This document shows positions 454 through 64,000 of a stretch of DNA of 64,000 bases, piece by piece (position 1 is the stretch's first letter; the number at the start of each line of letters is the position of its first letter). The stretch covers positions 14,264,109 to 14,328,108 of the forward strand of contig OY978530.1 of the NCBI GenBank assembly GCA_963854835.1. Reading direction: 5' to 3'. Source of the stretch: Megamerina dolium (Eukaryota > Arthropoda > Insecta > Diptera > Megamerinidae). The notes below the pieces were generated by a model. It did not search any database, was not told the origin of the DNA, and saw only the letters and a program-made list of their open reading frames with translations. Both the position numbers and the translations under genes were made by a program.

Positions 454-815
454 TGTCAACGTTCAAACTTTATAATAAAAAAGAAATATCATGATAAAAA
501 ATATTTTATATACAAACAACTGCACTGAAATGGCAGATCGCTGTTATGTTAACTCATATGTTTATATTTTACCACAGTCAATCGGTTTGTTATGAAAATA
601 TAAAGGGAAATGAAAAGTTATGGTGAATGGAATCTTTTCTAGGGGTGAAAGGGTTAATAAGAATGAAAACATGTGACGCCCGACTGTGTTTAGATTTTAG
701 AACATCTAATAAAGTTACATTAAAGACCATTAATATAACTAGTTACCTTTAATTGATGATTTGCTTGATCGACTGGCAAATAAATCATTGTTTTCACTAT
801 TAGATTAAAAAAGCG
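454..815. other. AT-rich stretch without recognised gene
   Basis: The first part should be the 3' untranslated end of the DD41D mariner, but I could not fix its terminal inverted repeat. The rest is AT-rich and has no recognised motif. Confidence 0.5.
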
Positions 816-27069: not shown

Positions 27070-27095
27070 AGACGTGAGTGTGAGGAAATAGAGAT

Positions 27096-43719: not shown

Positions 43720-43986
43720 GATTTGGGCTTCGTTCCTATGAGCCATTTGTTATACTTTCTAATATTCAATCGGTGTCACGCTCCATTGATTAACATACTT
43801 ATCATCAACAAATACAGTCTACTACCTCAAACTTTGATAGGATCTCATCTCAGAGCGCTTGCGCAAACTTTTGAAATTACCGATGCTGGTTATCCACGCC
43901 AAGATTTCTGGAATTAATTAAGCATCTTTGGTGTCCGATAGACTCGACTGTCCAGATAGAGGCACTCGATTTCATTTCACATCAAA
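43720..43986 (+). pseudogene. BEL/Pao protease-region scrap
   Basis: The last 76 bp (43911-43986) are a near copy of 47311-47386, the start of the BEL piece in the left arm. They read [18 protein letters not shown], resembling the L-I-D-S-G-A-Q block of an aspartic protease. It stops exactly where the palindrome arm begins. Confidence 0.6.
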
Positions 43987-44136
43987 TCTGTAACTGATAC
44001 TGAAGCTTTTTATGGATGTTACAAAGAATATATTCATAGCGGTCTACCTAAACCAACCTAAATTTACTCCTGCCCAAAAAATATGCCCAAATTAAGAATC
44101 TTTTGAATTTACCAACTGTCAAGCACAAAAAATCAC

Positions 44137-45960
44137 TGTAGGCACTAGACACTGTGTAAAATATCACTTAATTTATTTAGTATTTATAAAATTTTCAAAA
44201 ACATAATAGACTAGTTGCTAAATTTGTAATTGTCAGGAATAGAAAAATAAAATTTGGAATTTAAAACAGAGAACACGTGTTTCTCTTAACATACATACAC
44301 AATAACAACAATTCCCATATTGGTGGCGTTGACGTTATCTAAATGTCTACAACACGCTCAGTGGCTGAAGACCAGCAAATTGCTAAAGCATCCTCTCCAG
44401 CGGAGACGACGGAATTTTCGAGCCCTTCAATGATGACTCGTATCACAATATCGCTGCATATACCCAAATTTTGAAAAGCGTAATTCGAACACCATGGCAT
44501 TGCGTCAGAGAAAACCAAATATATCTCCATCCTTCCAGAGTTGGAACCTGAGCTTCACGTGACATTGTTCGGTCTCGACATGCTCATACGTATACTAAAA
44601 TAAAGGAACGTCAATTTTTTCCACGATGGATTTAGTTCATGCGTACAACAAATTCCCAAGATATTTCAAAAACAGCCATAATTACTGCTTTCGGCTTCTT
44701 CGAATTCCAATTCATGACTTTTGGCTTAATTAGTGATGTATAAACATTCCAGAAGTTTATGCACGAAGTATTTACTGTCTCAATTTTTTCTTTCCATAGC
44801 TCGACGATATTCCGATCGCTTCAAATAGGCAAGAAGAACATCTACGACATCTTGAACAACTGTTCCATCGAATGCAAACCTAGGCACTCGTGATCAATTT
44901 GTCTAAATGTAGCTTTGGAAAATCTGAAGTGAATTTTCGTGAACATCTTCTTTCTGAAAGGGGATTTTCATTAATTCCTGACTAAGTTGAAGTCATTTTA
45001 AATTTTCGCAGCCAAAAACAATGAAGGAAATACTAAGCCGACTTAGTTTAGCACATCCTTCAGATTCAGCACCTGTTGGCGTTATGGTAGACGCATCTTA
45101 CAGCTCCATCGGTGGTGTGCTGCAACAATGGTATGATAGTGGTTGGGAGCCGTTAAGTTTTTATTCTTAGAAACTCGGAAGAAGTACAGGACCTACGATA
45201 GAACATTTCTTGCTGCTTATTCTGTAGTCAAGCACTTCCGCCATTCATTGGAAGGCCGTCAAATTATTTATTTTTTACGGACCACAAACAGCTAACTTTC
45301 GCTTTTAAGTTCTGACAAAGCAACGCCACACCAATACCGTGAACTAGATTTCCTATCGTAATTTTCGACAGACATTCAACATGTCTGTGGTAAATCGAAT
45401 TTATTTGCAGACATATCTTATCGCATGTTTCTACAGTCGCTGCCCTTGTCCGATTGACTATGACGAATTAGCAAAAGCACAACAAAAGATCCTGATTCTT
45501 AAGCTTTTTTCTCTAATCCAGACTAAACATCCGTGGAATTGAACTGACACATCTTGTAGCATCACGAATTCGATCGACTCCATACTACCTATGTGCAAAT
45601 GGCATGACATTTCACTGTTTTTTGAAAACTTTTCGATATCCCAAAACTGTCTTAAACATGCCTATTGTTTCAATACCAACATTTTTGAAGATTTAAATCT
45701 ATTACCATACCTCTTCATCAATTAAGCAAAATATCGCGCCACGACAGATTTATATCGAGAGCTCGTCGAAAACAAGTTCTCTGGAGGGGATATAATGCAG
45801 GCACTTATTACTTAATTTATTTAATATTATAAAAGCATGGTAGGCTAGTTTCTAAATGTTTAATTGTCAGAAAATAAAACCATATCAGTTAATTTATATT
45901 AGGAGTTTAAAACAGGGAACACGCGTTTCTCTTAACATACATATGTACATATTAACAACA
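44137..45960 (+). mobile_element. CsRn1-like Ty3/gypsy element, internally deleted (left arm)
   Basis: Short LTRs, 44137-44310 and 45796-45960, both start with tg and end with aacaaca; they share ttaatttattta and gtttctcttaacatacat. After the 5' LTR, ttggtggcgttgacgttat is a decayed tRNA-Trp-type primer site as in CsRn1 elements. Inside are a gag start (MSTTRSVAEDQQIAKASSPA) and then, after a deletion, RT from STMDLVHAYNKFPR, a degraded LDDIPIASN motif C, LSKCSFGKSEVNF, and RNase H (VGVMVDASYSSIGGVLQQW, LEGRQIIYFL). Integrase and most of gag are missing. Confidence 0.88.
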
Positions 45961-46629
45961 ATTCCAATATCACTGAATAAAATAACAATGATTCTGAAAC
46001 AAACAAAAGCCAGAAGATTTTCTTTACTTACCGTTTGATCCTAAAATAAGAATGTTTTTCCTACGTTCTTATAGGAGGCCCATTTTTCAGTACTTCCAAA
46101 ATATAACATTGAGCTTGCTGCGTGTCAAAACATGCCTGTCATTACGTACAGCACCTTTTACTATTCCATTATGCTATGAGCATCATCATCATCATAGTTG
46201 GCCGGACAACCATGGGTGGGTCTTCGCCTGCTGTAAAATCTGTCTCCAAACGCTTCTATCTTTCGCTAGTGTTCTCGAATTTATTATGTTTAGGGTGGTT
46301 GCATCACTGTCCACTTAGGCTCTGTAACGCTATGCTGGATATAGCTGGCTTATCGTGGATGTTACTTTTTGAGGTAAGAGGCGTTTGAGCGCTTGAATAA
46401 TAGCGTTTTTTTTTGCGATGATAGTATATACAGGAAATTTTACTTTTACGGTCTTTTGCCATATGTGAATGAGTCAAACATCGCGAGCAGTTGTAATGCA
46501 AGAGAATAGCTCGCTATCTCTTTTCCATGCTCATTTGAAGAAACTTTTTGAAGAAACGAAGCGGTTTTCTATGCTTGCAAATCCAGCATGTTTTTTTTTT
46601 GTCTTAGTAGCGTTCATATTCGTCTAAGT
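45961..46629. other. unassigned DNA in the left arm
   Basis: No recognised element. It contains a (cat)n run near 46182-46194 and a minus-strand frame of unknown nature. Mirrored at 59470-60137. Confidence 0.4.
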
Positions 46630-46631
46630 TA

Positions 46632-47147
46632 CCAGGTGTACAAGCTTAAATCCGCTGTTTGCCCGTAGATGGCGTTAGTGAGCATATTGAGCTATTATCG
46701 ACTGTGCATCCTTTTTTTTATGAGTTTTACACCTGTTTACATCAATTAGTTAACATCATCAGTGATTTCATACAACATACATTTTTCCTCGTATAATCAT
46801 GTCTAGTTTCGTGCCAGAAAAAGAGCATATCCGGGAATCTCTACTTTTTTGCTTCAATTTGAAAAAATCTACTGCTGAGTCGCATCGAATGCTTGTGGTG
46901 ACAGTGCGCTACCGGAAACCACTTGCAGAGACTGCTTTCGTCGGTTCAAAGAAGGCCATTTTGACTTGAGTGACAAGAAGCGTGAAAATAGACCCAGAAA
47001 AGTTGAGGACCATGATTTGTAAGCTCTTTTTGATGAGGACGACACCCAAACGAAAAAAAATGCTTGCCGAACAGTTAGGTGTTACTCAACAAGTTATTTC
47101 CATAATTTGTGGCTTTCTATGAAAAAATGTGTTTTTTTTTACCGAAA

Positions 47148-47149
<2 letters not shown>
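46632..47149 (+). mobile_element. Mos1-like mariner A, 5' part (left arm)
   Basis: Begins after TA with ccaggtgtacaagcttaaat. The transposase start is MSSFVPEKEHIRESLLFCFN, typical of the mauritiana subfamily. Then, after a deletion and frameshifts, the helix-turn-helix region up to QQVISIIC. It next jumps to the element's 3' untranslated end (ggctttctatgaaaaaatgt, ccgaaaaac) and stops at a (TA)n tract instead of its 3' TIR. All catalytic blocks are missing. Confidence 0.9.
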
Positions 47150-47185
<36 letters not shown>

Positions 47186-47218
47186 TATATATATTAATAT
47201 ATATATGAATACACACAC

Positions 47219-47284
<66 letters not shown>
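47150..47284. repeat. (TA)n microsatellite (left arm)
   Basis: Compound TA tract with cacaca and interrupting bases. It joins mariner A to the BEL fragment; mirrored at 58811-58948. Confidence 0.95.
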
Positions 47285-47294
<10 letters not shown>

Positions 47295-47309
47295 ATGCGT
47301 GTGTGTGGA

Positions 47310-48035
47310 ATTAATTAAGCTTCTTTGGTGTCTGATAGACTCGACTGCCCAGATAGAGGCACTCGATTTCATTTCACATCAAATCTTGGGAAATTTGCCT
47401 TGTCAATGAATCTCTAACCAGAACTACCAAATCTTACTTGGGCTGATACAGGTTTTAGAAAACCTGCTTCAATGGATACACTTATCGGCACCAACTTTTA
47501 ACCATACATAATTCTTACTGGTATACAGGGACAGCTGTTTGGAAGTTTGACAGCTCAACATACGATATTCTGGTGGATATTTACAGGGCCAGTTCCCAGC
47601 TCTAAAATATCTTGTTTTTCGACAAGGATAGATTTTCCTTCAAATTTTACAATGGATAAATCTTTGACGCGTTTTTGGGAAATTAAGGAAAATCTGTGAT
47701 GCTACCCTTTAAAAATTCTAAAGCGATATGAGTCTAACAAAACTTCTAATGGGTCTAGTTTAAAGGATTTACGTCATATTGGCCTTGTTTTGCAATTTGT
47801 TCTATCATTAATTCTAGAACGATGGCGATTGTTCATATTAGTTATAAATCGTGATATTGAGAAAATGTATCACCAAATACTTGTCGAGCCGAACGGATCC
47901 ATTTTGTGCGTTTTAACGGATTTTGTATAGCTCCTATACAGATGAAACGATCTATGATTTCGAGTTGCAAACTGTAATTTTGCAACTCATCTCTCGCAGA
48001 TGAGATACAAGAAGAAGACTTTGAGCCCCAGCGGC
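47310..48035 (+). pseudogene. BEL/Pao pol fragment (left arm)
   Basis: Protease-like [19 protein letters not shown], then LTWADTGFRKPASMDTLIGT, then LTAQHTIFWWIFTGPVPSSK and SLTRFWEIKENL, all landmarks of BEL/Pao before RT. After a deletion, INRDIEKMYHQILVEPNG is RT motif A. It ends near LADEIQEEDFEPQRL. This copy lacks about 35 bp that the right arm keeps. Confidence 0.87.
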
Positions 48036-49103
48036 TTGTTATTTTTCATCATAAAAATGGTCTCTCTGACCTCGGCATGGTCAGATGGTGGAACATATAC
48101 ATCATCATCCGTGATTAGGGAGTTCGAGAGATCCCTCCACTGGCGGGATTGTTCGAAGCGTCGCCATTCAGTAACGTGGGAAAGTGTTCTCTCTATAAGC
48201 CAGTACATCCTGGACATCTGTAACCAGATTCCCATTTTTGTCACAACAGGAAGAGGCTCCGGGACTTAAACCACCACTCAGGAGTTTTATCTTCTCGAAG
48301 AATTTTTGAATATCATTCCTGGCTCTACGCTTCTCTATTTCTTTCCTGCTCTCAATCCTTACGCCAGCAAAAGACATCCTTCTGCACTCCTCTTTCCCTG
48401 TACTGCTCTTTAACAGGTCACGTAGCACCTGCATGCAGAGTTTTTCTCTGCGGCAGCGTCGAGAGGCGGTGGGAATCGATTATTTCCTTGGCAGCAGTAG
48501 TCATGTAGTGCGATATGTGTGTCCACTGTGCGTATGTATCATCAAGAGAGGGAGTGTTCTCCATAAGCAGATCCGTTAATCGAATAGTGAAAGCATTTAC
48601 TATTCGATTAACTTAGGCATTTCATTTATTCTTTGCGACACATAACCGTGTTCGCACCTCAGCTGCAATAAAGCAATGATCCGAGTCGATGTTGGCACCA
48701 CGGATCGATTTCACGTCCATCACATTGGAAGCATGCCTTCCTTCGATCATCACGTGATCAATTTGGTTCTTCGTTATTTGATATGGAGACAGCCACGTCG
48801 TTTTATGGATTTCGAAATTTTGAAATTTGGTACTAATAATTACCATGTATCGTGCTGCGGCGAAGTCGATCAGCTTCATTTCGTTATCGGAGGTGTTCTG
48901 ATGGAAGCCGAATTTTCCGACAGTTGGACCAAAGGTACCTTCCTTGCCCACCCTGGCATTAAAGTCGGCAAGTACGATTTTGGTATCGTGGTGATGCAGC
49001 AGTTATAAACTTTTCGATGCGCTGAAAGAAGCTCTTTTTGGTCTCATCGTCCCTTTCATCCGTCAGGGCGTGGGCACATATTAGATTTATGTTGAAAATT
49101 TTG
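48036..49103 (-). mobile_element. LINE B fragment (left arm)
   Basis: Minus strand: endonuclease part (ALTDERDDETKKSFFQ, MGKEGTFGPTVGKFGFHQNT, IDHVMIEGRHASNVMDVKSI), then, after deletions, IQKFFEKIKLLSGGLSPGAS and VPPSDHAEVRETIFMMKNNK. An insertion at 48575-48612 is a perfect 14-bp hairpin. Fused at 49104 to the truncated terminus of mariner B. Confidence 0.9.
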
Positions 49104-49107
49104 CTTA

Positions 49108-50318
49108 AATCCGCTGTTTTTCGGTGAAAAGAAAAACACATTTTTTTTCATAGAATGCCAAAAATTAATTTATTTAAAGTACTTGCCCTCACTAACTATA
49201 CATTTCTCCCATCTCTCGGGCAATTTGTGTATACCATGCCAAAAGAATTCCTCATTTTTAGAGGCAAACCACTCGTCAAGCCATTTTCCGACGTCTTCAT
49301 ACGAATCGAAGTGCTGTTCGGCGAGCGTGTGACCCATCGACGAAAACAGGTGATAGTCAGAAGGGGCCAGGTCTGGTGAATAAGCGGGATGAGGTAGCAC
49401 CTCCCAATTGAGTGTCTCCAAGTAGTTTTGGACCAGTTTTGACGTGTGCGATGGCGCGTTGTCGTGGAGAAAAATCAGCTTTTCATGTCTTTGTCCATAA
49501 CCAGGCCTTTTTCACCCAAAGCGCGGCGCAATTTCACTAGTTGGTGCTGGTAGCGGTGAGCATTGACAGTTCCACCAGGTTTCAACAGCTCGTAGTAGAT
49601 GACACCTGCTGATCCCACCAAACGCACAGCGTCGTCTTTTGTCAATTTGGTCGACCCACGATTTTTTTCATTTAGGATTCTCAAAGCATATCCACTTTTC
49701 ATCGCAAGTCACCACAAGATGCAGGAACGACTTTCTTTTTTGCCTAGCAAACAAGATTTGCAATGTGTTTTGCCGTCGCTCCATCTGTCTATCGTTCAAT
49801 TCATGGAGTACCCATTTTCCAAATTTTTGAACCTTCCCATGGCTCATAAACTTATGGAAATGGCTTGATAAGTAACACCTAACTGTTCGGCAAGCATTTT
49901 TTGCGATTGGGTGTCGTCCTCATCCAAAAGGGCCTGCAAATCATGGTCCTGAACTTTTCTGGGTCTATTTTCACGCTTCTTGTCACTCAAGTCAAAATGG
50001 CCTTCTTTGAACCGACGAAACCAGTCTCCGCAAGTGGTTTCCGATAGGGCACTGTCTCCACAAGCATTCGATGCAGACAGATTTCTTCAAATTGAAGCAA
50101 AAAAGTAGAGCTTCCCGCATATACTCTTTTTCTGGCACGAAACTAGACATGATTATACGAGGAAAAATGTATGTTGTTGTATGAAATCACTTATGATGTT
50201 TACTAATTGATGTAAACAGGTGTAAAACTCATAAAAAAAAGGATGCACAGTCGATAATAGCTCAATATGCTTACTCACCATCTACGAGCAAACAGCGGAT
50301 TTAAGCTTGTACACCTGG
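49108..50318 (-). mobile_element. Mos1-like mariner B, nearly complete (left arm)
   Basis: Right end intact: cttgtacacctgg then TA at 50319-50320. The left end stops at cttaaatccgctg, missing the outer 13 bp, where LINE B begins. The minus-strand transposase keeps its start codon region, VTCDEKW-type first block (D), HDNAPSHT (second D) and LAPSDYHLFSSMGH (third D), so DD34D is complete. Deletions and frameshifts near 49670 and 49480 break the frame. Confidence 0.92.
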
Positions 50319-50322
50319 TATA

Positions 50323-50560
50323 TGTAGAATATATAGTTCTTCAAGAGTTTGAAGGTATAAAAAACCTTTTAAGTTCCCTTTAGGCATAAGTATCCTTTAA
50401 GCTTTGAGCTTTTCGCTTTGGGTCATTGCTAAATAAACGAAAATTTTCATATGATAGATATTAGGCTAGTGCCTACTCAACATTTCCTCCGGAGTCAACT
50501 TCAATAATTTATGAGGACTTATAATTGCTACGTACAGTCCAGTATTAGCAGCTTCTGCCT
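50323..50560 (-). pseudogene. Ty1/copia integrase end (left arm, truncated)
   Basis: Minus strand equivalent of 55513-55783: AEAANTGLYVAIISPHKLLK, then PNIYHMKIF and DPKRKAQSLK. It is cut at 50560, where errantivirus sequence starts. It lacks 31 bp present in the right arm, with an atga microhomology at the deletion ends. Confidence 0.85.
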
Positions 50561-51386
50561 TGAATATTACTACTTTCCAAAAATGTCAAGGAAATTAAAA
50601 GAGATTGCCCTTAACTGTAGAACATGCAAAGAAGCGAAATATGACAGACACCCCACAAAGAATCAGATTGGCAAGACACCAATCCCAGCTCACCCTGGAC
50701 AGATCATCCATTTGGACATATTTTCTACTGACAGGGTCAATTTCATTACTTGTATCGATAAATTAACAAAATATGCCCTTACTTTCCCCATAGAGTCGCG
50801 ATCCATAGTAGACATAAAAATACCAATGTTACAAATCATGAATTTCTTCCCGAATGCCGAAACAATAGTGTGTGATAACGAAAAATCCTTCATTTCGAGA
50901 ACCGTAAAATCCTTGCTAAGAAACAATTTCGGAGTATCTTTATTTACCGTGCCCCCAGCACACAGCACTAGTAACGGTCAAGTAGAAAGACTACATAGCA
51001 CACTTGGCGAAATAGCTAGATGTTTAAAGAATGAGGGACAAATCTCAGATACCAAAGACCTTGTTCTCATCGCTACCTCTAAGTATAATAACACTATCCA
51101 TTCAGTAACAAATTGCAGACCCGTAGATATAATCCACTCTCTTCCAGAAGAAAAAAAGGAATACATTATAAAAAAACTGACCGAGATTCAAGAAAAGGAC
51201 CTTCAGTATCATAACAGGGATAGGCATATAAGAACATTCGAACCCGGAGATATCGTGTATGTCAAAACTAATAAGCGTATAGGAAATAAGTTCAGCAATC
51301 TGTTTGTTAAGAAAATAGTGCAAAAAGATAGGGGGAATTCAGTACAAATTGATAGCAGACTAGTCCACAAGGATAATATTAGGTAG
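50561..51386 (+). pseudogene. errantivirus integrase, 5'-truncated
   Basis: Open to its stop at 51384-51386. It starts inside the zinc-binding domain (YYYFPKMSRKLKEIALNC, CRTCKEAKYDRHP). The core has HPGQIIHLDIFS (first D), AETIVCDNEKSFIS (second D) and SNGQVERLHSTLGEIARCLK (E). The C-terminal region has FEPGDIVYVKTNKRIGNKFS. The first His pair of the zinc finger and everything upstream are lost at 50560, so it has no start of its own. An ATG at 50511 lies in foreign copia sequence. Confidence 0.93.
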
Positions 51387-52876
51387 ATGCTCTTCACTTC
51401 AAATCTATTAAATTTCGTTTTTTTCTCTTCTCACCTCTTTCCCAGGCTTATAATTTCACTCTTTCCTTACATCCACACCACTATAGTGGATACTCTTCCT
51501 CACACTACATTCCTATACTGGATGGTAAGGTGGCAATCTTGACCGACAGCAGAACCCTATTACACAAAACTAATCTGACTGACTTCGAGGAAATAATAAA
51601 TAAGACGCACAACTTAATTGAATTCTTTCCTAAATCCCAAATGAAGAAACTTTTAGAAGCGGATATAGAACAAATAGAGAAACTAGTCGATTCCTTGAAA
51701 ACCCACCATCGACATGCTCGCAGCATTAACTTTCTGGGATCAGCGCTTAAATACATTGCAGGTACACCCGACTATGACGATCTTGAAGAAATGCATGGCA
51801 AAGAAAATGAACTCATTTTAAATAACAATAGGCAAAGAATCATTAATTCCGAACTGCAAAACCAGATAAACAACCTAACCCGAACTGTTAACATATTTGT
51901 AAACGAAACGAAAACCTCGGACATCGAACTAGAACGATTATACGATCTCTTAAACAGTAGAAACAAAGCAATAATTACCGAACTGGACAGCATTGCATTA
52001 TCAATAATGTTAGGAAAACTTAATGTCATAAATCTTTTACTATTAAATATAAGAGAAACGAAATACATTTTTAATTCTGAAAAAAGTAATATAGAAATAA
52101 GTGTAAGCGAAATCATCGCAAATTCAAAGTTAAAAATATTGCAAAATAAAGAAATTATTGTATTTATAATTAAGTTTCCTATTATCGAGGCATTATGCGA
52201 AAAATTATTAATTATACCTGTTATTCATGAGAATAAAATGCTTTTATTTGAAAGTAATGAATTTGCTAAATGTAACAATCATTATATAGCACTAAGTAAT
52301 TGTAAGAAAAAAGTTACCACTTCCTTTTGCCAAAATTTACTTCATCTAAAAGACCTATGTCTTACCAACCTCTTAAATAACAATACAGCATCTTGCCAAA
52401 CAATACCCGCCTATGATCTTCCATTCTTTTCAATAATTGACGATGGAATTGTGGTTATAAATAACCAACCTTCTGAAATCACAGAGCAAGGAGTAAGGAA
52501 ACTCCTCAACAAGGGAACATTCCTACTTACGTTCGATGATGAACTAGCAATAAACGGAACCAAGTTACGAAACCAAAGGAAAATAGCCTACATGAGCCCT
52601 GAAACCCCTATGGCTCACTCCGTAAATTTCACAAACCATATCTCTCTCTTATCGCTTCCATATTTACATGAATTGCACACCAGAAACATTGATAGAATTG
52701 CCCTGTTGCATTCTAAAATAAAAGAAACATCTTATGCGGTCGTCTGCCTTGTAATAATAGCAGCGGTAATAGCTATTTTTCTTCTTATGAAAAGAAGACA
52801 ACAACGAATTAAGATTGTAAATGTCCTTAATAAACTTAAGCAGGCGAGGACGCCTGATCTTCAAGAGGGGGAGTAG
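51386..52876 (+). CDS. env: errantivirus envelope protein
   Basis: Uninterrupted frame of about 496 codons from a stop at 51380-51382 to TAG at 52874-52876. No AUG lies near its start; errantivirus env is normally made from a spliced RNA, so the start codon is probably supplied from upstream and is not present here. A hydrophobic run near its beginning (IKFRFFLFSPLSQA) may be the signal peptide. RHAR (about 51713-51724) is a furin-like site, followed by a fusion-peptide-like INFLGSALKYIAGTPD. A Cys-rich ectodomain follows. One membrane segment (VVCLVIIAAVIAIFLLM, about 52739-52789) precedes a basic tail. No lesion is visible in the frame. Confidence 0.9.
   Translation, partial: DALHFKSIKFRFFLFSPLSQAYNFTLSLHPHHYSGYSSSHYIPILDGKVAILTDSRTLLHKTNLTDFEEIINKTHNLIEFFPKSQMKKLLEADIEQIEKLVDSLKTHHRHARSINFLGSALKYIAGTPDYDDLEEMHGKENELILNNNRQRIINSELQNQINNLTRTVNIFVNETKTSDIELERLYDLLNSRNKAIITELDSIALSIMLGKLNVINLLLLNIRETKYIFNSEKSNIEISVSEIIANSKLKILQNKEIIVFIIKFPIIEALCEKLLIIPVIHENKMLLFESNEFAKCNNHYIALSNCKKKVTTSFCQNLLHLKDLCLTNLLNNNTASCQTIPAYDLPFFSIIDDGIVVINNQPSEITEQGVRKLLNKGTFLLTFDDELAINGTKLRNQRKIAYMSPETPMAHSVNFTNHISLLSLPYLHELHTRNIDRIALLHSKIKETSYAVVCLVIIAAVIAIFLLMKRRQQRIKIVNVLNKLKQARTPDLQEGE
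52863..52874 (+). other. polypurine tract of the errantivirus
   Basis: aagagggggag directly before the 3' LTR; it overlaps the end of env. Confidence 0.8.
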
Positions 52877-53513
52877 TTAACAGAATAGTTAACAGTCTAA
52901 CGTCCGTCTGTAAATTCTTTAACGTCTGTCTGTAAATTCTTATCAAAAGATTTAAATTTCCTTGCCCTAGTTTCAAACACACGCGCGGACTTTTTGCATC
53001 CGCTGCAATGCACGCGCAAGCATAAAGCACGTTGCATCTCAACGTGACACTTTAAAATTCCGTTCCAGAAAATTCTTTCCCACACTCTGTTGGGTAACGC
53101 ACGTTACACTTCAACGTGACAAAGTTCCCACACCTGCAAGGTGCGATCACGTAACTGCATTCAGCAGACGATATTTGATCCTCGTTTTTTTTTATTCTTT
53201 TCTTTTTAGCTTTTTGGCAAGCTTGCGTTCCCACGCGCGGTACGATAATAAGCGAGAAGATTTTCGTATAAATAAAAGGGAAATGGTAGCTAAGTTAGTT
53301 AGTCTCTGACAGTGAGTCTTTAAAAAACTTTAAAAGGTAATCTTGCCGAAAAAGTTCCGCATAGCGGAAAGCAAGACATTCTCGTGTAACGAAATTTAGA
53401 ATAAAGTGAAACCTGTAACTTAATCATGTAAAGAAATTTAGAATAAAGTGAAAACCTGTAACTAAAGTAAAAGTTTTAATAAAAAACATAAAAAAAAATT
53501 TTGAATCTTAACT
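52875..53513 (+). repeat. errantivirus 3' LTR
   Basis: Begins agttaa and ends ttaact, as usual for errantiviruses. It contains a TATA-like gtataaataa at 53266-53275, AATAAA signals, and an imperfect tandem duplication near 53384-53469 (gaaatttagaataaagtgaa twice). The 5' partner is not in the window. Length 639 bp by my boundaries. Confidence 0.82.
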
Positions 53514-53525
53514 AATCTTTTTTTA

Positions 53526-53528
<3 letters not shown>

Positions 53529-53598
<70 letters not shown>

Positions 53599-53631
53599 TA
53601 TGTATATATATATATATATATACACACATAC

Positions 53632-53680
<49 letters not shown>

Positions 53681-53692
53681 CATGTATATACA
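53529..53692. repeat. (TA)n compound microsatellite
   Basis: TA tract with tacacacatacata interruptions, starting 15 bp after the errantivirus LTR. Confidence 0.95.
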
Positions 53693-53769
53693 CATATATA
53701 CATGTATGTATGTGTGTGTGTGTTTGTGTGCGCGAGTGTATAATATATAATATATAAACATATTTTCGT

Positions 53770-53835
53770 ATTATTTTCTCCATAAGATTGAAGAAGTCGC
53801 ACGATAACGAATCACCTTGTCTGAAACCCCGTTCA

Positions 53836-53836
<1 letters not shown>
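53770..53836 (-). mobile_element. LINE B scrap embedded between (TA)n arrays
   Basis: 67 bp complementary to the RT motif B region of LINE B ([14 protein letters not shown]), about 27945-28010 of the best copy. It has TA-rich tracts on both sides. Confidence 0.9.

Positions 53837-53837
<1 letters not shown>

Positions 53838-53906
<69 letters not shown>
53838..53906. repeat. (TA)n microsatellite
   Basis: About 70 bp of pure TA directly after the LINE B scrap. Confidence 0.97.
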
Positions 53907-53911
<5 letters not shown>

Positions 53912-54249
53912 TACATTATTATTGTAGCTTTATATCTGTCGACCAGAGGTAGAACTTTCTTTTACAAGTTTTCGAACATAAAGTATATACGACGAATTTG
54001 ACCCTTTTGATCACAAGGTGCACTTTTTTCCAAAATTGAGCTTATAAATTTATCAAAATCAATTTTCCACTATTGCAATTGCACCATAACTGGATTCGGC
54101 GACTGCACATGGTTGTGTTATCACATTCTATAACTCCTTTAAATTGTTGTGTTATACACTAACTTGATATACTTTACTGCTATGCTATAATCCTATATAA
54201 AGCGTTTTCCAATAGGGATGATATGATTTTAAAATGTCATAGCGACCAA

Positions 54250-54930
54250 ATTGAAAACAGCAGAAATGTCAATGCTGTCGTTTGTAATTCATCATGGTAA
54301 AATACACTCTTTAGCAACGCTATGTTATTATCCAAAAATTTTAGAAAATAATCGTTTTTTTATTCAAATTCATCTTGGACTTGGTGAGTTTGTGCTAACA
54401 AAATCATCCTTTCAAATGAAGCTCAATTTTATCTGAATGGCTTTGTTAATAAGAAACATTTTTTTTTTAAATTATGAATTTAAATTGTAACAATTAATGG
54501 TGCATGATACAAAGCAATGTTAAAAATGTTTGTCATAATTGGATGAAAATGATATGGACGAGATGAGGTTTCAACAAGACGGTGCAACTTCTACGGTTAT
54601 CATCGACTTATTGCAAGAAAATTTTGGTGAATCCATAATTTCATGAAATGCAACTCCAACAACTCCATAAAGTTGTGATTTACATTTTTATATTACTTTT
54701 TATGGGGATATTTGAAATCATTAATGTATGCAGACAAACCACGAACACTTGCAGCATTGAAACAGAATATTAACCGTATTCCTGGTAAAATTATACCAGC
54801 TTTATGCATATAGTTATTGAAAATTGGACTCATCGAATTGACTCCTATAAACAAAGTAGATGTGGTCATTTGAATAATGTCTTCTTCATAATATAATTGG
54901 TATACCAAGCTTCAAAATAAAAAAAAAATG
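54250..54930 (+). pseudogene. second mariner-like (DD41D-related) transposase remnant
   Basis: Decayed relative of the elements at 1-453 and 63105-64000. NEAQFYLNGFVNK (about 54404-54450) matches the first catalytic block with D changed to N. MRFQQDGATS (about 54563-54592) is the second. Next come LLQENFGESIIS, a corrupted third block near 54670-54710, and YADKPRTLAALKQNINRI in shifted frame. Many stops. Ends unknown. Confidence 0.8.
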
Positions 54931-55129
54931 TTATTGTTCTATCGTACACATATCTTGTTTTATTATACATATTTGAAAAACATATCGTCTTTCTTGGAAA
55001 TCCCTTTACATGTTTGCTTATGCTAGTGTTTTTTCTCTATTCAATAAATTATTATATTCTGCCTACGATTCTAAAAGGTTACGGGTCTTTACGTAGTAAA
55101 CTGATAATTTTGTGCAGAAATTGTTTTGA

Positions 55130-55783
55130 AATCTAATAAATCGAATCTAATCGCTTTGGCTCAGACGTATGTGGCACCATGGAAGTGTTGTCTTTGGGTA
55201 GCAGCAGATTCTACGTGGTGTTCGTGGATGACTACACTCTTAGATATTCAATTATTTTGTAAAACGCAAGTCTGAATTTCACTAAAAATTTTTTGAGTTC
55301 AAGAAAATGGTTGAAAATTAAATTGGAGAAAAGCTCAAAATTTTGAGGAGTGATAATGGCACATAGTACACTCACAACAAGATATGGAATCATTCATCCA
55401 ATATCGGTGCCATATAATCCGGAACAAAATGGTCTAGCGAAGCGTGTAAATAGAACCCTGACTGAGAGGTCAAGGTACATGCTATACGATTCAAAGTTAC
55501 CAAAACCTTTTTAGGCAGAAGCTGCTAATACTGGACTGTACGTGGCAATTATAAGTCCTCATAAATTATTGAAGTTGACTTCGGAGGAAATGTTGAGTAG
55601 GCACTAGCCTAATATCTATCATATGAAAATTTTCGTTTATTCAGCAATGATGTTTATACAAAAGGGATAAAGTGTATATGACCCAAAGCGAAAAGCTCAA
55701 AGCTTAAAGGATACTTATGCCTAAAGGGAACTTAAAAGGTTTTTTATACCTTCAAACTCTTGAAGAACTATATATTCTACATA
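55130..55783 (+). pseudogene. Ty1/copia integrase fragment (spans the right arm edge)
   Basis: Across frames: GSDVCGTMEVLSLGSSRFYV and FVDDYT (first D region), LKILRSDNGT (second D), IHPISVPYNPEQNGLAKRVN (the E of the family's NGVAER is A in AKR), RTLTERSRYML, AEAANTGLYVA, then YHMKIF and DPKRKA. It runs without a break through 55513, the inner edge of the right palindrome arm, so this arm sits in the older context. The catalytic E is lost. Confidence 0.88.
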
Positions 55784-55785
55784 TA

Positions 55786-56958
55786 CCAGGTGTACAAGCT
55801 TAAATCCGCTGTTTGCTCGTAGATGGTGAGTGAGCATATTGAGCTATTATCGACTGTGCATCCTTTTTTTTATGAGTTTTACACCTGTTTACATCAATTA
55901 GTAAACATCATAAGTGATTTCATACAACAACATATGCGTATATGCGGGAAGCTCTACTTTTTTGCTTCAATTTGAAGAAATCTGTCTGCATCGAATGCTT
56001 GTGGAGACAGTGCCCTATCGGAAACCACTTGCGGAGACTGGTTTCGTCGGTTCAAAGAAGGCCATTTTGACTTGAGTGACAAGAAGCGTGAAAATAGACC
56101 CAGAAAAGTTCAGGACCATGATTTGCAGGCCCTTTTGGATGAGGACGACACCCAATCGCAAAAAATGCTTGCCGAACAGTTAGGTGTTACTTATCAAGCC
56201 ATTTCCATAAGTTTATGAGCCATGGGAAGGTTCAAAAATTTGGAAAATGGGTACTCCATGAATTGAACGATAGACAGATGGAGCGACGGCAAAACACATT
56301 GCAAATCTTGTTTGCTAGGCAAAAAAGAAAGTCGTTCCTGCATCTTGTGGTGACTTGCGATGAAAAGTGGATATGCTTTGAGAATCCTAAATGAAAAAAA
56401 TCGTGGGTCGACCAAATTGACAAAAGACGACGCTGTGCGTTTGGTGGGATCAGCAGGTGTCATCTACTACGAGCTGTTGAAACCTGGTGGAACTGTCAAT
56501 GCTCACCGCTACCAGCACCAACTAGTGAAATTGCGCCGCGCTTTGGGTGAAAAAGGCCTGGTTATGGACAAAGACATGAAAAGCTGATTTTTCTCCACGA
56601 CAACGCGCCATCGCACACGTCAAAACTGGTCCAAAACTACTTGGAGACACTCAATTGGGAGGTGCTACCTCATCCCGCTTATTCACCAGACCTGGCCCCT
56701 TCTGACTATCACCTGTTTTCGTCGATGGGTCACACGCTCGCCGAACAGCACTTCGATTCGTATGAAGACGTCGGAAAATGGCTTGACGAGTGGTTTGCCT
56801 CTAAAAATGAGGAATTCTTTTGGCATGGTATACACAAATTGCCCGAGAGATGGGAGAAATGTATAGTTAGTGAGGGCAAGTACTTTAAATAAATTAATTT
56901 TTGGCATTCTATGAAAAAAAATGTGTTTTTCTTTTCACCGAAAAACAGCGGATTTAAG
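55786..56958 (+). mobile_element. Mos1-like mariner B (right arm)
   Basis: Starts after TA (55784-55785) with ccaggtgtacaagcttaaat. Compared with the left-arm copy it lacks about 42 bp that include the transposase start codon and the MSSFVPEK region. Later parts are the same: LHDNAPSHT (about 56598) and the frame 56641-56892 with LAPSDYHLFSSMGH. It ends truncated at cggatttaag, joined to LINE B. Confidence 0.92.
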
Positions 56959-58040
56959 CAAAATTTTCAACATAAATCTAATATGTGCCCACGCCCTGAC
57001 GGATGAAAGGGACGATGAGACCAAAAAGAGCTTCTTTCAGCGCATCGAAAAGTTTATAACTGCTGCATCACCACGATACCAAAATCGTACTTGCCGACTT
57101 TAATGCCAGGGTGGGCAAGGAAGGTACCTTTGGTCCAACTGTCGGAAAATTCGGCTTCCATCAGAACACCTCCGATAACGAAATGAAGCTGATCGACTTC
57201 GCCGCAGCACGATACATGGTAATTATTAGTACCAAATTTCAAAATTTCGAAATCCATAAAACGACGTGGCTGTCTCCATATCAAATAACGAAGAACCAAA
57301 TTGATCACGTGATGATCGAAGGAAGGCATGCTTCCAATGTGATGGACGTGAAATCGATCCGTGGTGCCAACATCGACTCGGATCATTGCTTTATTGCAGC
57401 TAAGGTGCGAACACGGTTATGTGTCGCAAAGAATAAATGAAATGCCTAAGTTAATAGAATAGTAAATGCTTTCACTATTCGATTAACGGATCTGCTTATG
57501 GAGAACACTCCCTCTCTTGATGATACATACGCACAGTGGACACACATATCGCACTACATGACTACTGCTGCCAAGGAAATAATCGATTCCCACCGCCTCT
57601 CGACGCTGCCGCAGAGAAAAACTCTGCATGCAGGTGCTACGTGACCTGTTAAAGAGCAGTACAGGGAAAGAGGAGTGCAGAAGGATGTTTTTTGCTGGCG
57701 TAAGGATTGAGAGCAGGAAAGAAATAGAGAAGCGTAGAGCCAGGAATGATATTCAAAAATTCTTCGAGAAGATAAAACTCCTGAGTGGTGGTTTAAGTCC
57801 CGGAGCCTCTTCCTGTTGTGACAAAAATGGGAATCTGGTTACAGATGTCCAGGATGTACTGGCTTATAGAGAGAACACTTTCCCACGTTACTGAATGGCG
57901 ACGCTTCGAACAATCCCGCCAGTGGAGGGATCTCTCGAACTCCCTAATCACGGATGATGGTGTATATGTTCCACCATCTGACCATGCCGAGGTCAGAGAG
58001 ACCATTTTTATGATGAAAAATAACAAGCCGCTGGGGCTCA
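56959..58040 (+). mobile_element. LINE B fragment (right arm)
   Basis: Mirror of 48036-49103 with a few substitutions. The hairpin insertion is at 57450-57487, here with one mismatch. Confidence 0.9.
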
Positions 58041-58800
58041 AATTCTTCTTCTTGTATCTCATCTGCGAGTTGCAATGATGTACGTATTGCAAGATATGGA
58101 GCGCAATTGATACCAAAAATTACAGTTTGCAACTCGAAATCATAGATCGTTTCATCTGTATAGGAGCTATACAAAATCCGTTAAAACGCACAAAATGGAT
58201 CCGTTCGGCTCGACAAGTATTTGGTGATACATTTTCTCAATATCACGATTTATAACTAATATGAACAATCGCCATCGTTCTAGAATTAATGATAGAACAA
58301 ATTGCAAAACAAGGCCAATATGACGTAAATCCTTTAAACTAGACCCATTAGAAGTTTTGTTAGACTCATATCGCTTTAGAATTTTTAAAGGGTAGCATCA
58401 CAGATTTTCCTTAATTTCCCAAAAACGCGTCAAAGATTTATCCATTGTAAAATTTGAAGGAAAATCTATCCTTGTCGAAAAACAAGATATTTTAGAGCTG
58501 GGAACTGGCCCTGTAAATATCCACCAGAATATCGTATGTTGAGCTGTCAAACTTCCAAACAGCTGTCCCTGTATACCAGTAAGAATTATGTATGGTTAAA
58601 AGTTGGTGCCGATAAGTGTATCCATTGAAGCAGGTTTTCTAAAACCTGTATCAGCCCAAGTAAGATTTGGTAGTTCTGGTTAGAGATTCATTGACAAGGC
58701 AAATTTCCCAAGATTTGATGTGAAATGAAATCGAGTGCCTCTATCTGGGCAGTCGAGTCTATCAGACACCAAAGAAGCTTAATTAATTCCACACACACGC
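58041..58800 (-). pseudogene. BEL/Pao pol fragment (right arm)
   Basis: Mirror of 47310-48035 but more complete: the minus-strand frame from 58174 holds YDFELQTVIFGINCAPYLAI, then RTSLQLADEIQEEEFEPQRL, the RT block between motifs A and C. The left arm has lost about 35 bp here. Confidence 0.88.
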
Positions 58801-58802
58801 AT

Positions 58803-58810
<8 letters not shown>

Positions 58811-58874
<64 letters not shown>

Positions 58875-58907
58875 GTGTGTGTATTCATATATATATTAAT
58901 ATATATA

Positions 58908-58948
<41 letters not shown>
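58811..58948. repeat. (TA)n microsatellite (right arm)
   Basis: Mirror of 47150-47284, with a slightly different repeat count. Confidence 0.95.
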
Positions 58949-58951
<3 letters not shown>

Positions 58952-59467
58952 TTTCGGTAAAAAAAAACACATTTTTTCATAGAAAGCCACAAATTATGGA
59001 AATAACTTGTTGAGTAACACCTAACTGTTCGGCAAGCATTTTTTTTCGTTTGGGTGTCGTCCTCATCAAAAAGAGCTTACAAATCATGGTCCTCAACTTT
59101 TCTGGGTCTATTTTCACGCTTCTTGTCACTCAAGTCAAAATGGCCTTCTTTGAACCGACGAAAGCAGTCTCTGCAAGTGGTTTCCGGTAGCGCACTGTCA
59201 CCACAAGCATTCGATGCGACTCAGCAGTAGATTTTTTCAAATTGAAGCAAAAAAGTAGAGATTCCCGGATATGCTCTTTTTCTGGCACGAAACTAGACAT
59301 GATTATACGAGGAAAAATGTATGTTGTATGAAATCACTGATGATGTTAACTAATTGATGTAAACAGGTGTAAAACTCATAAAAAAAAGGATGCACAGTCG
59401 ATAATAGCTCAATATGCTCACTAACGCCATCTACGGGCAAACAGCGGATTTAAGCTTGTACACCTGG
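58949..59467 (-). mobile_element. Mos1-like mariner A, 5' part (right arm)
   Basis: Mirror of 46632-47149. The outer end is cttgtacacctgg, followed by TA at 59468-59469. The inner end is replaced by (TA)n. Confidence 0.9.
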
Positions 59468-59469
59468 TA

Positions 59470-60137
59470 ACTTAGACGAATATGAACGCTACTAAGACAA
59501 AAAAAAACATGCTGGATTTGCAAGCATAGAAAACCGCTTCGTTTCTTCAAAAAGTTTCTTCAAATGAGCATGGAAAAGAGATAGCGAGCTATTCTCTTGC
59601 ATTACTACTGCTCGCGATGTTTGACTCATTCACATATGGCAAAAGACCGTAAAAGTAAAATTTCCTGTATATACTATCATCGCAAAAAAAAACGCTATTA
59701 TTCAAGCGCTCAAACGCCTCTTACCTCAAAAAGTAACATCCACGATAAGCCAGCTATATCCAGCATAGCGTTACAGAGCCTAAGTGGACAGTGATGCAAC
59801 CACCCTAAACATAATAAATTCGAGAACACTAGCGAAAGATAGAAGCGTTTGGAGACAGATTTTACAGCAGGCGAAGACCCACCCATGGTTGTCCGGCCAA
59901 CTATGATGATGATGATGCTCATAGCATAATGGAATAGTAAAAGGTGCTGTACGTAATGACAGGCATGTTTTGACACGCAGCAAGCTCAATGTTATATTTT
60001 GGAAGTACTGAAAAATGGGCCTCCTATAAGAACGTAGGAAAAACATTCTTATTTTAGGATCAAACGGTAAGTAAAGAAAATCTTCTGGCTTTTGTTTGTT
60101 TCAGAATCATTGTTATTTTATTCAGTGATATTGGAAT
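59470..60137. other. unassigned DNA in the right arm
   Basis: Mirror of 45961-46629; one substitution noted (ttactactgctc here, ttacaactgctc in the complement of the left arm). Confidence 0.5.
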
Positions 60138-61961
60138 TGTTGTTAATATGTACATATGTATGTTAAGAGAAACGCGTGTTCCCTGTTTTAAACTCCTAAT
60201 ATAAATTAACTGATATGGTTTTATTTTCTGACAATTAAACATTTAGAAACTAGCCTACCATGCTTTTATAATATTAAATAAATTAAGTAATAAGTGCCTG
60301 CATTATATCCCCTCCAGAGAACTTGTTTTCGACGAGCTCTCGATATAAATCTGTCGTGGCGCGATATTTTGCTTAATTGATGAAGAGGTATGGTAATAGA
60401 TTTAAATCTTCAAAAATGTTGGTATTGAAACAATAGGCATGTTTAAGACAGTTTTGGGATATCGAAAAGTTTTCAAAAAACAGTGAAATGTCATGCCATT
60501 TGCACATAGGTAGTATGGAGTCGATCGAATTCGTGATGCTACAAGATGTGTCAGTTCAATTCCACGGATGTTTAGTCTGGATTAGAGAAAAAAGCTTAAG
60601 AATCAGGATCTTTTGTTGTGCTTTTGCTAATTCGTCATAGTCAATCGGACAAGGGCAGCGACTGTAGAAACATGCGATAAGATATGTCTGCAAATAAATT
60701 CGATTTACCACAGACATGTTGAATGTCTGTCGAAAATTACGATAGGAAATCTAGTTCACGGTATTGGTGTGGCGTTGCTTTGTCAGAACTTAAAAGCGAA
60801 AGTTAGCTGTTTGTGGTCCGTAAAAAATAAATAATTTGACGGCCTTCCAATGAATGGCGGAAGTGCTTGACTACAGAATAAGCAGCAAGAAATGTTCTAT
60901 CGTAGGTCCTGTACTTCTTCCGAGTTTCTAAGAATAAAAACTTAACGGCTCCCAACCACTATCATACCATTGTTGCAGCACACCACCGATGGAGCTGTAA
61001 GATGCGTCTACCATAACGCCAACAGGTGCTGAATCTGAAGGATGTGCTAAACTAAGTCGGCTTAGTATTTCCTTCATTGTTTTTGGCTGCGAAAATTTAA
61101 AATGACTTCAACTTAGTCAGGAATTAATGAAAATCCCCTTTCAGAAAGAAGATGTTCACGAAAATTCACTTCAGATTTTCCAAAGCTACATTTAGACAAA
61201 TTGATCACGAGTGCCTAGGTTTGCATTCGATGGAACAGTTGTTCAAGATGTCGTAGATGTTCTTCTTGCCTATTTGAAGCGATCAGAATATCGTCGAGCT
61301 ATGGAAAGAAAAAATTGAGACAGTAAATACTTCGTGCATAAACTTCTGGAATGTTTATACATCACTAATTAAGCCAAAAGTCATGAATTGGAATTCGAAG
61401 AAGCCGAAAGCAGTAATTATGGCTGTTTTTGAAATATCTTGGGAATTTGTTGTACGCATGAACTAAATCCATCGTGGAAAAAATTGACGTTCCTTTATTT
61501 TAGTATACGTATGAGCATGTCGAGACCGAACAATGTCACGTGAAGCTCAGGTTCCAACTCTGGAAGGATGGAGATATATTTGGTTTTCTCTGACGCAATG
61601 CCATGGTGTTCGAATTACGCTTTTCAAAATTTGGGTATATGCAGCGATATTGTGATACGAGTCATCATTGAAGGGCTCGAAAATTCCGTCGTCTCCACTG
61701 GAGAGGATGCTTTAGCAATTTGCTGGTCTTCAGCCACTGAGCGTGTTGTAGACATTTAGATAACGTCAACGCCACCAATATGGGAATTGTTGTTATTGTG
61801 TATGTATGTTAAGAGAAACACGTGTTCTCTGTTTTAAATTCCAAATTTTATTTTTCTATTCCTGACAATTACAAATTTAGCAACTAGTCTATTATGTTTT
61901 TGAAAATTTTATAAATACTAAATAAATTAAGTGATATTTTACACAGTGTCTAGTGCCTACA
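60138..61961 (-). mobile_element. CsRn1-like Ty3/gypsy element, internally deleted (right arm)
   Basis: Mirror of 44137-45960, with both short LTRs. One substitution was noted (gtctccactgg against gtctccgctgg). Confidence 0.88.
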
Positions 61962-62199
61962 GTGATTTTTTGTGCTTGACAGTTGGTAAATTCAAAAGAT
62001 TCTTAATTTGGGCATATTTTTTGGGCAGGAGTAAATTTAGGTTGGTTTAGGTAGACCGCTATGAATATATTCTTTGTAACATCCATAAAAAGCTTCAGTA
62101 TCAGTTACAGAAACTTGGAGGCAAATATTTGAGAAATTTGCAGGTTTCACTCGATTCTCTTGCGGGGTTTGAACTTCCAGGGTTTTGAGACTGCAGAGT

Positions 62200-63055
62200 T
62201 TTGAGCAAATCTAGCATTTGAGGTTTGCAAGTGTAAAGTCGTTTGGAACGCAGCAAATGGTTTGCCAATACAAACATATGGTAAACGTTTAATGACTGTA
62301 TGCTTTGCATTACGACGCGAATTCCCATTTCACTATAGCGGATTGTTTAACATCAATAATCGGCGCGGATTTTTTAAACGAACACGGTTTACTCATAGAT
62401 AATAAACGAAAACGTATAATTAATCCAATGACTGAGGTGTCATCAAAAGGGGAAATTGGAATTGGGAAATTCACCTCAGGTAACTACAATCGATTCAACC
62501 AACAAGTTTTCGTTCCTTCTAACTGAATTCAAAGCACTGATTGACGTCAGACCATCGTTTCGTGTAAGGAAAGGGCTAACGTAACATACTTCATCGAAAC
62601 CTCTGGCCCACCCGCAACCGCAAAAGCAACACGACTATCTGCTGAAAAATTAAAAATAGCAAAAGAAGAATTTAACGAACTGCTTAGACTTGGTAATTGC
62701 AGACCTTCAAAATCGAATTACGCTGCGCCACTGCACATGGCACCTAAAACAAATGGAGAGTAGCGACCATGCGCAGACTACCAACAGTTGAACTCCCAGG
62801 CAAAGCCGGATAAGTATCCAGTTCCACACCTGCAAGATTTCACAAATATCCTGCATGGAAAGAAAATATCCAGCCGAAAAAGTCCCTATTTTCATTTCAT
62901 TCGGGCTTCGAAACGCCTCACAAACATTTCAACGACTAATTGATGAAGTACTCCGTGAACTTGATTTTGTTTTTGCATACATAGATGATAAAGGGTTATC
63001 CATTTCGCGGTTTCAAAAGTATAGGGCTAGAATTCGACATCTGTCAAACTGAGTT
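62200..63055 (+). pseudogene. CsRn1-like Ty3/gypsy protease-RT fragment
   Basis: NAANGLPIQTYGKRLMTVCF, ALRREFPFH, ADCLTSIIGADFLNEHGLLI (end of protease), FIETSGPPATAKATRLSAEK, FNELLRLGNCRPSKSNYAAP, LHMAPKTNGE-stop-RPCADYQ and KYPVPHLQDFTNILHGKKIS are consecutive CsRn1-type landmarks. A deletion then removes RT motif A, and FGLRNASQTFQRLIDEVLRE plus DFVFAYIDD (motifs B and C) follow at 62894-62986. The in-frame TAG at 62761-62763 replaces a Trp codon. Confidence 0.9.
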
Positions 63056-63104
63056 GTTAAAACAATTTCTTTCTTTTTCAGTTCAAAATCTGACATTTGC
63101 GAAA

Positions 63105-64000
63105 ATGGATCGCTTAACTATCGCACAACGCATTAAAATTGTAAAAACCCACTACAAAAATGGTGATTCTGCCACAGCCACATATCGTGCTTTAAGAGGA
63201 GATTATGGTTTACATAATCGTCCAACTACGCAAGCAATTGGCAAAATTGTGAAGAAGTATGAAGAGACTGGATCGGTTACAGATATTGTAAGGCCTGTGC
63301 ATCATCGTTTCGCTCGTACCACCGAAAATATCGCTGCTGTAAGTGAAAGTGTTGCCGAAGACCCGAATGTGTCGATTCCTCGTCGTTCTCAGGAATTAGG
63401 ACTGTCTTACGGCACATTATGGCGTATTTTGCATTTGAATCTACACCTACATCCATATAAAATCCAGCTCACACAACAACTGAAGCCAGCTGACCATTCA
63501 CAACGTCGTAGATACGTCGAATGGGTGCTTGAACAACAGGCGGTAGACGGCGATTTTTCGAATAAAATTTTCTTCAGCGACGAAGCACATTTCTCACTCG
63601 GTGGGTATGTTAACAAACAAAATTGTCGTATTTGGGGTTCTGAGAATCCTCAAGTAATTGAAGAGAGGCCACTACATCCACAAAAAGTCACTGCTTGGTG
63701 CGCTCTTTGGTCCGGAGGTGTGATTGGACCTTACTTCTTCGAAAACGACGATGGAACGACTGTCACCGTCAATTCGGAGCGTTATGGTCATATGATGACC
63801 GACTTTTTTTTGCCTGCTATTGAAGAATACGACTTAGAGAATATGTGGTTTCAACAAGACGGTGCCACATGCCACACAACTCGAGCGAATATGGCTTTAT
63901 TGCAAGAGAAATTTTCTGGCCGCGCAATTTCTCGTCGTGGCGATATCAAGTGGCCACCAAGATCATGCGATTTGACACCGCTTGACTTTTTTTGTGGGGC
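63105..64000 (+). pseudogene. DD41D mariner-like transposase, 5' part (copy 2, runs off the window)
   Basis: Starts with ATG at 63105 (MDRLTIAQRIKIVKTHYKNG) and stays open for about 295 codons. After a helix-turn-helix region, IFFSDEAHFSLGGYVNKQN carries the first catalytic D, and FQQDGATCHTTRAN the second, intact here. Near 63985 the run of T after PLD has seven T, against eight in copy 1. This shifts the frame right after the third catalytic D (DFFLWG becomes DFFCG). So this copy too is probably dead, unless the missing T is a sequencing error. The segment from about 63738 repeats window positions 1-260. Confidence 0.9.

Follow-up and report, generated by a model that had tools for sequence, protein, structure and literature searches.

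Inverted repair copying of the right arm as the probable origin of an 18-kb palindrome in Megamerina dolium

Results

A 64,000-nucleotide stretch of the genome of the fly Megamerina dolium (assembly GCA_963854835.1, 500.5 Mb in 8 contigs; contig C6, OY978530.1, positions 14264109-14328108; hereafter the window) contains an 18-kb palindrome, in which two nearly identical 6.6-kb arms in inverted orientation surround a spacer of 4,952 bp. Since every edge of the arms lies in or against a transposon, copies of these transposons elsewhere tell whether an edge is ancestral. The right arm is native on both sides and is the donor. The inner edge of the left arm is a new junction, and its outer edge is well supported as another, by fewer copies. 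Native right edges together with new left edges identify the left arm as the copy, made from the right arm in inverted orientation and inserted at a break 5 kb from it. Judged from the sequence, an inverted repair copy with the right arm as donor and the left arm as acceptor is very probably the origin of the palindrome.

Anatomy of the palindrome

The arms and spacer consist largely of transposon fragments, some of which we take to be Pao, copia and errantivirus pieces and name as such below. The three parts of the palindrome, in window positions, are as follows.

43987..50560, minus strand: left arm, very probably the inverted copy (acceptor), with a new junction at either end, the outer one well supported
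55513..62111, plus strand: right arm, the original (donor), both ends running on into flanking transposons
50561..55512, no strand: spacer, 4,952 bp, holding the 3' portion of a gypsy/errantivirus copy, (TA)n runs and a copia integrase

When the window was compared with itself by BLASTN, 43987-50560 paired with 62111-55513 in inverted orientation over 6,646 columns, with 13 mismatches and 119 gap columns; the length and identity of this match dismiss a chance origin. Global alignment resolved the differences into 12 clear substitutions (about 0.19%), three sizable indels (35 bp net with an 11-bp replacement, 42 bp and 31 bp) and minor changes, namely 6- and 4-bp length changes inside an (AT)n run and one 1-bp change. 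Both alignments reproduced exactly the coordinates of the two near-identical 6.6-kb inverted arms in a preliminary description of the window; its three sizable indels were also recovered, and its estimate of about eight substitutions was too low. The homology ends sharply at all four edges (43987, 50560, 55513 and 62111).

The right arm is native at both ends

At the right outer edge (62111/62112), 40 of 62 candidates were scored, so that match counts are a lower bound. Apart from the window's own 2, 41 of the 43 matches came from outside, and 32 of these cross the edge; the others are a gypsy piece farther right (6) or short pieces to its left (3). Thirteen copies of the crossing group were fetched, and every one aligns to the left and to the right of the edge, reading ...CAGGAACTTG... 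where the window has ...CAGA/AACTTG.... Agreement in these copies extends to 42-44 of 52 columns over the right-hand 50 bases and to 39-42 of 66-67 columns over the left-hand 50 bases, the lower value on the left being due to gaps. In one fetched locus (L027) the site corresponds to codon 172 of a 485-aa open frame that carries DUF1759, presumably a Pao gag domain, at residues 180-323.

The right inner edge (55512/55513) is crossed by 4 of 8 outside matches (10 matches in all, 2 of them the window's own), while one of the remainder stops at the edge and three are one-sided. The match that stops there (L043, the same locus as L047) has poorly aligned last bases and a deletion of its own, and one of the one-sided matches (L046) is accompanied by a short, separate piece across the edge. 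In L041 the edge falls inside an open frame with an integrase core; the window shares this frame, interrupted by a stop at the edge. The right arm ends mid Pao gag and mid copia integrase, which bears out the earlier view that the unit was copied as a segment and not as one known element.

The left arm ends in new junctions

None of the 38 outside matches crosses the left inner edge (50560/50561), for which 40 of 1,573 candidates were scored, 2 of them the window's own. Thirteen errantivirus copies, 97-99% identical, start at 50559, and the other 25 matches lie within the first 121 query bases. Before the break all 13 copies read AAATCAAATTCT, and therefore only CT is common to errantivirus and arm.

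The left outer edge (43986/43987) yielded 41 matches, comprising the window's own two ends, two arm-internal Pao matches that stop 3 bases beyond the edge, and 37 outside matches, none of which crosses. As the outside copies fall short of this edge, the case here is made by the arm-internal paralog and by the order of the Pao pieces. The flank 43909-43989 is 96% identical to the paralog at 47306-47386, which then diverges after TCT. In fetched Pao copies the gag-side piece precedes the pol piece; at the left outer edge this order is reversed.

50559..50560, plus strand: CT microhomology, 2 bp, at the left inner junction, common to the arm end and the errantivirus integrase
43987-43989: TCT microhomology, 3 bp, at the left outer junction
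43909..43989, plus strand: Pao pol piece that the left outer junction truncates; arm-internal 47306-47386 matches it at 96%

The preliminary description had proposed an inverted segmental duplication, possibly by template switching; this still stands, and the evidence at the edges now resolves which arm is donor and which acceptor.

A model for the repair event

We propose that a germ-line double-strand break, or a broken or stalled fork, occurred between a Pao fragment (to 43986) and an errantivirus integrase gene (from 50561). Instead of direct joining, one broken end would have primed inverted-orientation synthesis on the region 5 kb downstream; 6.6 kb (55513-62111) would have been copied, and the new strand would then have been joined to the other broken end, leaving an inverted copy (the left arm) 4,952 bp from its template (the right arm). 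In the pre-event allele, the Pao fragment would have been joined to the errantivirus fragment near ATCAAATCTTGAATATT, with the right arm undisturbed. We infer a single event of repair-coupled synthesis, by synthesis-dependent strand annealing (SDSA), microhomology-mediated break-induced replication (MMBIR) or fold-back priming. Either broken end may have been the primer, and the template may have lain in cis or on the sister or homologue. A flip of the spacer following the duplication was considered and rejected: with a native inner edge on the donor arm, no flip, or an even number of flips, is needed.

The two broken ends are alike (ATCAAA-TCTTG versus ATCAAATTCTTG). Comparison of the Pao end, ATCAAATCT followed across the break by TGGG, with the errantivirus end, ATCAAATTCT followed by TGAA, gave P 0.001 in 6,000 random pairs, for a likeness that was spotted post hoc and with the lost Pao continuation taken from the 96% paralog. 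The resemblance suggests that the ends may have been held together by microhomology during repair, or that the copy went, with nothing lost, into a single Pao-errantivirus joint that already existed. A more specific version, in which one germline end-joining event held the ends by about 11 bp of imperfect microhomology and had 6.6 kb of inverted proximal DNA templated in before sealing, and in which the 6.6-kb hairpin could, if transcribed through, give double-stranded RNA (dsRNA) against its five transposon kinds, is a long shot.

Changes since the duplication and the age of the event

Comparison of the arms indicates that the event was followed by 12 substitutions and by end-joining-type deletions, at least three in number (two in the left arm, one in the right). 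The three deletions were polarised by genome or window copies, and each has microhomology or templated filler.

47982..47992, plus strand: left-arm deletion, 35 bp net; the right arm keeps 58070-58115, and the filler has CTCATCT, the reverse complement of adjacent AGATGAG
50125..50166, plus strand, kept in the left arm: right-arm deletion of 42 bp, lost near 55937, where the filler GCATA repeats adjacent sequence
50423..50426, plus strand: site of the left-arm 31-bp deletion, between TCAT direct repeats; the right arm keeps 55651-55681

For the 35-bp difference, Pao copies L034, L035 and L038 side with the right arm at the protein level, pointing to loss from the left. The 42-bp stretch is present in the mariner paralog as in the left arm, pointing to loss from the right. 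At the 31-bp difference, copia copies L041, L042 and L045 match the right arm at its start, L044 being too diverged.

The low divergence could also belong to an older palindrome whose arms were kept alike by arm-to-arm gene conversion, as on sex chromosomes, in which case the event would be much older than 0.19% suggests. This explanation concerns age and is compatible with the assignment of donor and acceptor; we consider it unlikely. In its favour, the arm differences are uneven and denser at the inner end: the innermost 436 bp, a limit picked after the data had been seen, hold 6 of 16 counted events (P 0.0003) and 4 of 12 substitutions (P 0.006). Against it, the longest identical run, 1,679 bp, is unremarkable (P 0.37 for substitutions, 0.15 for all events), and each arm has kept private deletions. 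Moreover, 13 copies in the genome are, over 339 bases, just 1-3% away from the errantivirus copy cut by the left arm, which bounds the age of the event. As gene conversion is possible, 0.19% is a lower bound on that age.

The preliminary description had called the palindrome by far the youngest large event. This is true of the long repeats inside the window, where the next closest repeats fall short of it in length or identity (540 bp at 93%, 264 bp at 97%) and further pieces of about 150-200 bp at 96-98% are in many cases (TA)n, but it fails beyond the window: the surrounding 164 kb holds direct pairs that are 99.8% identical over 2,164 bp, 99.0% over 1,660 bp and 97-98% over about 1.3 kb, which rules out taking identity alone as a sign of the youngest event nearby. 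Among the 45 strongest self-matches of the 164 kb, no inverted pair other than the palindrome exceeds 2 kb. The 2,164-bp direct repeats (L010/L011, window coordinates +82233-84395 and +88224-90387) are by identity about as young as the palindrome. A 1.3-kb element has three copies, 97-98% identical, in about 100 kb: at window 62988-64000, at window 1-511 and, in the flank loci, at about -35104 to -33799.

Contrary evidence and alternative origins

Several points weigh against a donor right arm and an acceptor left arm, the post hoc discovery of the break-end likeness described above being one. The 37 outside matches approach the left outer edge no closer than 43931 from the left or 43995 from the right; the count of 0 of 37 alone is therefore weak there, and our confidence is slightly lowered. 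In tblastx searches, eight Pao loci (L024, L026, L027, L030, L031, L032, L034 and L037) span this edge by 22-31 bases at 44-50% amino-acid identity; since the nucleotide alignments begin at 43988, we read this as end extension. A microhomology of 2-3 bp, taken singly, often arises by chance. An empty-site pattern (28 bases, up to 3 mismatches) was not found in the species' own assembly, as expected if this allele alone is assembled. The 6.6 kb copied also lies above the maxima of human repair duplications, 619 bp for the proximal class (mean 162 bp) and 3,424 bp for the distant class (Pace et al. 2009; PMC2671141). Finally, two haplotypes would also fit arms that differ over 6.6 kb by 12 substitutions and several indels.

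The last point would apply to an assembly artefact in which two haplotypes or loci were joined in inverted order, an alternative that the preliminary description had raised. Haplotype copies would have common flanks, whereas all four flanks differ here; two of the edges are seamless with transposon copies elsewhere, and the other two are microhomology joins inside elements. Both arms carry private mutations, and the assembly is a large-scale one (8 contigs) with no N across the 164 kb. Junctions, private mutations and this N-free stretch leave such a join without support, and it appears very unlikely.

We give even less credence to a small inversion with staggered breaks, in which the spacer would have flipped and fill-in of the overhangs would have left an inverted duplicate at either end of it. 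Staggered breaks are a classic source of inverted duplicates in flies (PMC7584159). Such an inversion predicts a native outer edge on one arm and a native inner edge on the opposite arm, but both lie on the right arm, contradicting the simple form of the model. It further requires a native left outer edge, that is, Pao running into TCTGTAACTG at 43987, where instead the Pao pieces are out of order and the paralog continues otherwise. The remainder of the cut errantivirus, which the model places in the right flank, was not seen in its first 350-400 bases.

That the arms are a transposable element, or the long terminal inverted repeats of one 18-kb element, has a negligible chance of being correct: inverted arms flanking a coding spacer do look like such elements, but the arm termini, mid gag and mid integrase in the right arm, are not element termini, no target-site duplication was found at the palindrome's outer ends, and a genome search with the outer 1.5 kb gave no third copy at full length. 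This search, which passes over very common words, returned 15 matches: the 2 full-length ones are the palindrome's own arms, and the remaining 13 are short pieces at 71-92%.

Transposon content of the arms and spacer

Each arm is a mosaic of at least seven pieces of five kinds (Pao, Ty3/gypsy, mariner twice, non-long-terminal-repeat (non-LTR) and copia) plus (AT)n, in keeping with the at least six old, unrelated transposon fragments described earlier. Pfam supports the gypsy Env in the spacer, rve in copia copy L041, and DUF1759 in L027 and L028. The pieces are listed below.

44991..45170, plus strand: Ty3/gypsy RNase H fragment, left arm (RT_RNaseH_2, 33.9 bits against a cut-off of 29.8); right arm 60928-61107
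46630-47108: second mariner fragment, left arm; right-arm counterpart 58991-59469
47306..47990, plus strand: Pao pol fragment, left arm; right-arm counterpart 58070-58791
48024..49113, minus strand: non-LTR retrotransposon endonuclease fragment, left arm (Exo_endo_phos_2 below cut-off); right arm 56949-58038
49105..50320, minus strand: mariner copy, left arm (DDE_3 and HTH_48 just above cut-off); right arm 55784-56957
50561..51386, plus strand: gypsy-type integrase, truncated at Integrase_H2C2 profile position 32 (H2C2 and rve below curated cut-offs)
51383..52876, plus strand: gypsy Env (PF07253) open reading frame, 497 aa
55347..55783, plus strand: copia integrase crossing 55512/55513 into the right arm, with in-frame stops
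62011..62253, minus strand: Pao gag piece crossing 62111/62112; fetched copies align on both sides

Among the named relatives of the spacer Env, the only ones from flies are those of Ceratitis capitata (44% identity over 68%) and Aedes albopictus (25%), and the non-LTR fragment at 48024..49113 is 74% identical to window 26254-27404. Searched at the protein level, the copia fragment that spans the right inner edge returned 1 candidate and none significant, and Pfam at E up to 1 gave only rve_3 for it, below cut-off. At the same threshold two Pao pieces, two right-flank gypsy pieces and the frame over the right outer edge were unmatched in Pfam. Pfam likewise had no match for 3 of 7 frames from fetched loci. 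A tblastx search for copia in a first set of fetched loci found nothing, and neither did tRNA and Rfam scans.

Further observations concern these elements. The truncated gypsy/errantivirus copy at window 50561-52876 has 13 copies elsewhere at 97-99% over a 339-base integrase stretch, pointing to a young family. The two mariner fragments of each arm are mutually inverted (46630-47108 and 49849-50320 in the left arm) and 91.5% alike, forming a smaller, older pair. About 430 kb away, C6:14753444-14753719 (L043, L047, L064) has a mariner adjoining copia, like the right inner end, with a 221-bp copia gap and 88-97% identity; it is probably an older duplicate of part of the mosaic. At C6:8780616-8838530 one short match recurs five times at a spacing of about 12-17 kb, perhaps reflecting a tandem array of a larger unit.

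Discussion

The class of mechanism proposed here is already on record for yeast, human and Drosophila, and the palindrome is a large and clean case of a known kind of event. Its anatomy is ordinary in kind, and the evidence is unusually complete: with the junctions inside repeated elements, copies elsewhere reveal the original arm and what broke, without an outgroup genome. The same edge test can sort the large inverted repeats of repeat-rich assemblies into duplications, inversions or errors, classes that are difficult to distinguish by other means. If the improbable, more specific version of the model were right, the locus would represent a kilobase-scale templated insertion in an insect germ line, and its hairpin of five transposon kinds around an open gypsy env frame could, if transcribed through, be a ready source of dsRNA.

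Among the human repair duplications of Pace et al. (PMC2671141), attributed to SDSA break repair, 824 of 1,136 have a donor within 5 kb, with microhomology of 2-9 nt. The palindrome resembles them in that its donor is near the acceptor (4,952 bp), its acceptor lies in transposon sequence and microhomology is present, and relative to that set it is a large proximal inverted copy. Unlike those cases, its acceptor flanks are two different elements and not one interrupted element.

At Drosophila inversion breakpoints (PMC7584159), inverted duplicates are formed via staggered breaks, or by a switch and back-copying; in contrast, there is no inversion here, and both native edges are on one arm. MMBIR and template switching (Hastings et al. 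2009; PMC2621351) share with our locus microhomology (2-5 bp there), inverted duplications and template switches, although a single inverted segment is present here and the mixed duplications, deletions and triplications of that model were not seen.

Fold-back inverted duplications (Hermetz et al. 2014; PMC3907307) have spacers of 766-70,466 bp (median 3,428) and inverted microhomology of 2-8 bp at 13 of 21 junctions. Those events are of very large size and terminate in a telomere or translocation, whereas here the copy is short and interstitial, with its far side rejoined; terminal deletion or translocation beyond the copy is absent, and the left flank runs on along the same 63-Mb contig. As in the fold-back cases, an inverted copy, an unduplicated spacer (4,952 bp) and a template occur together, with inverted microhomology that is only 2 bp here, and this geometry fits fold-back or ectopic SDSA/MMBIR repair.

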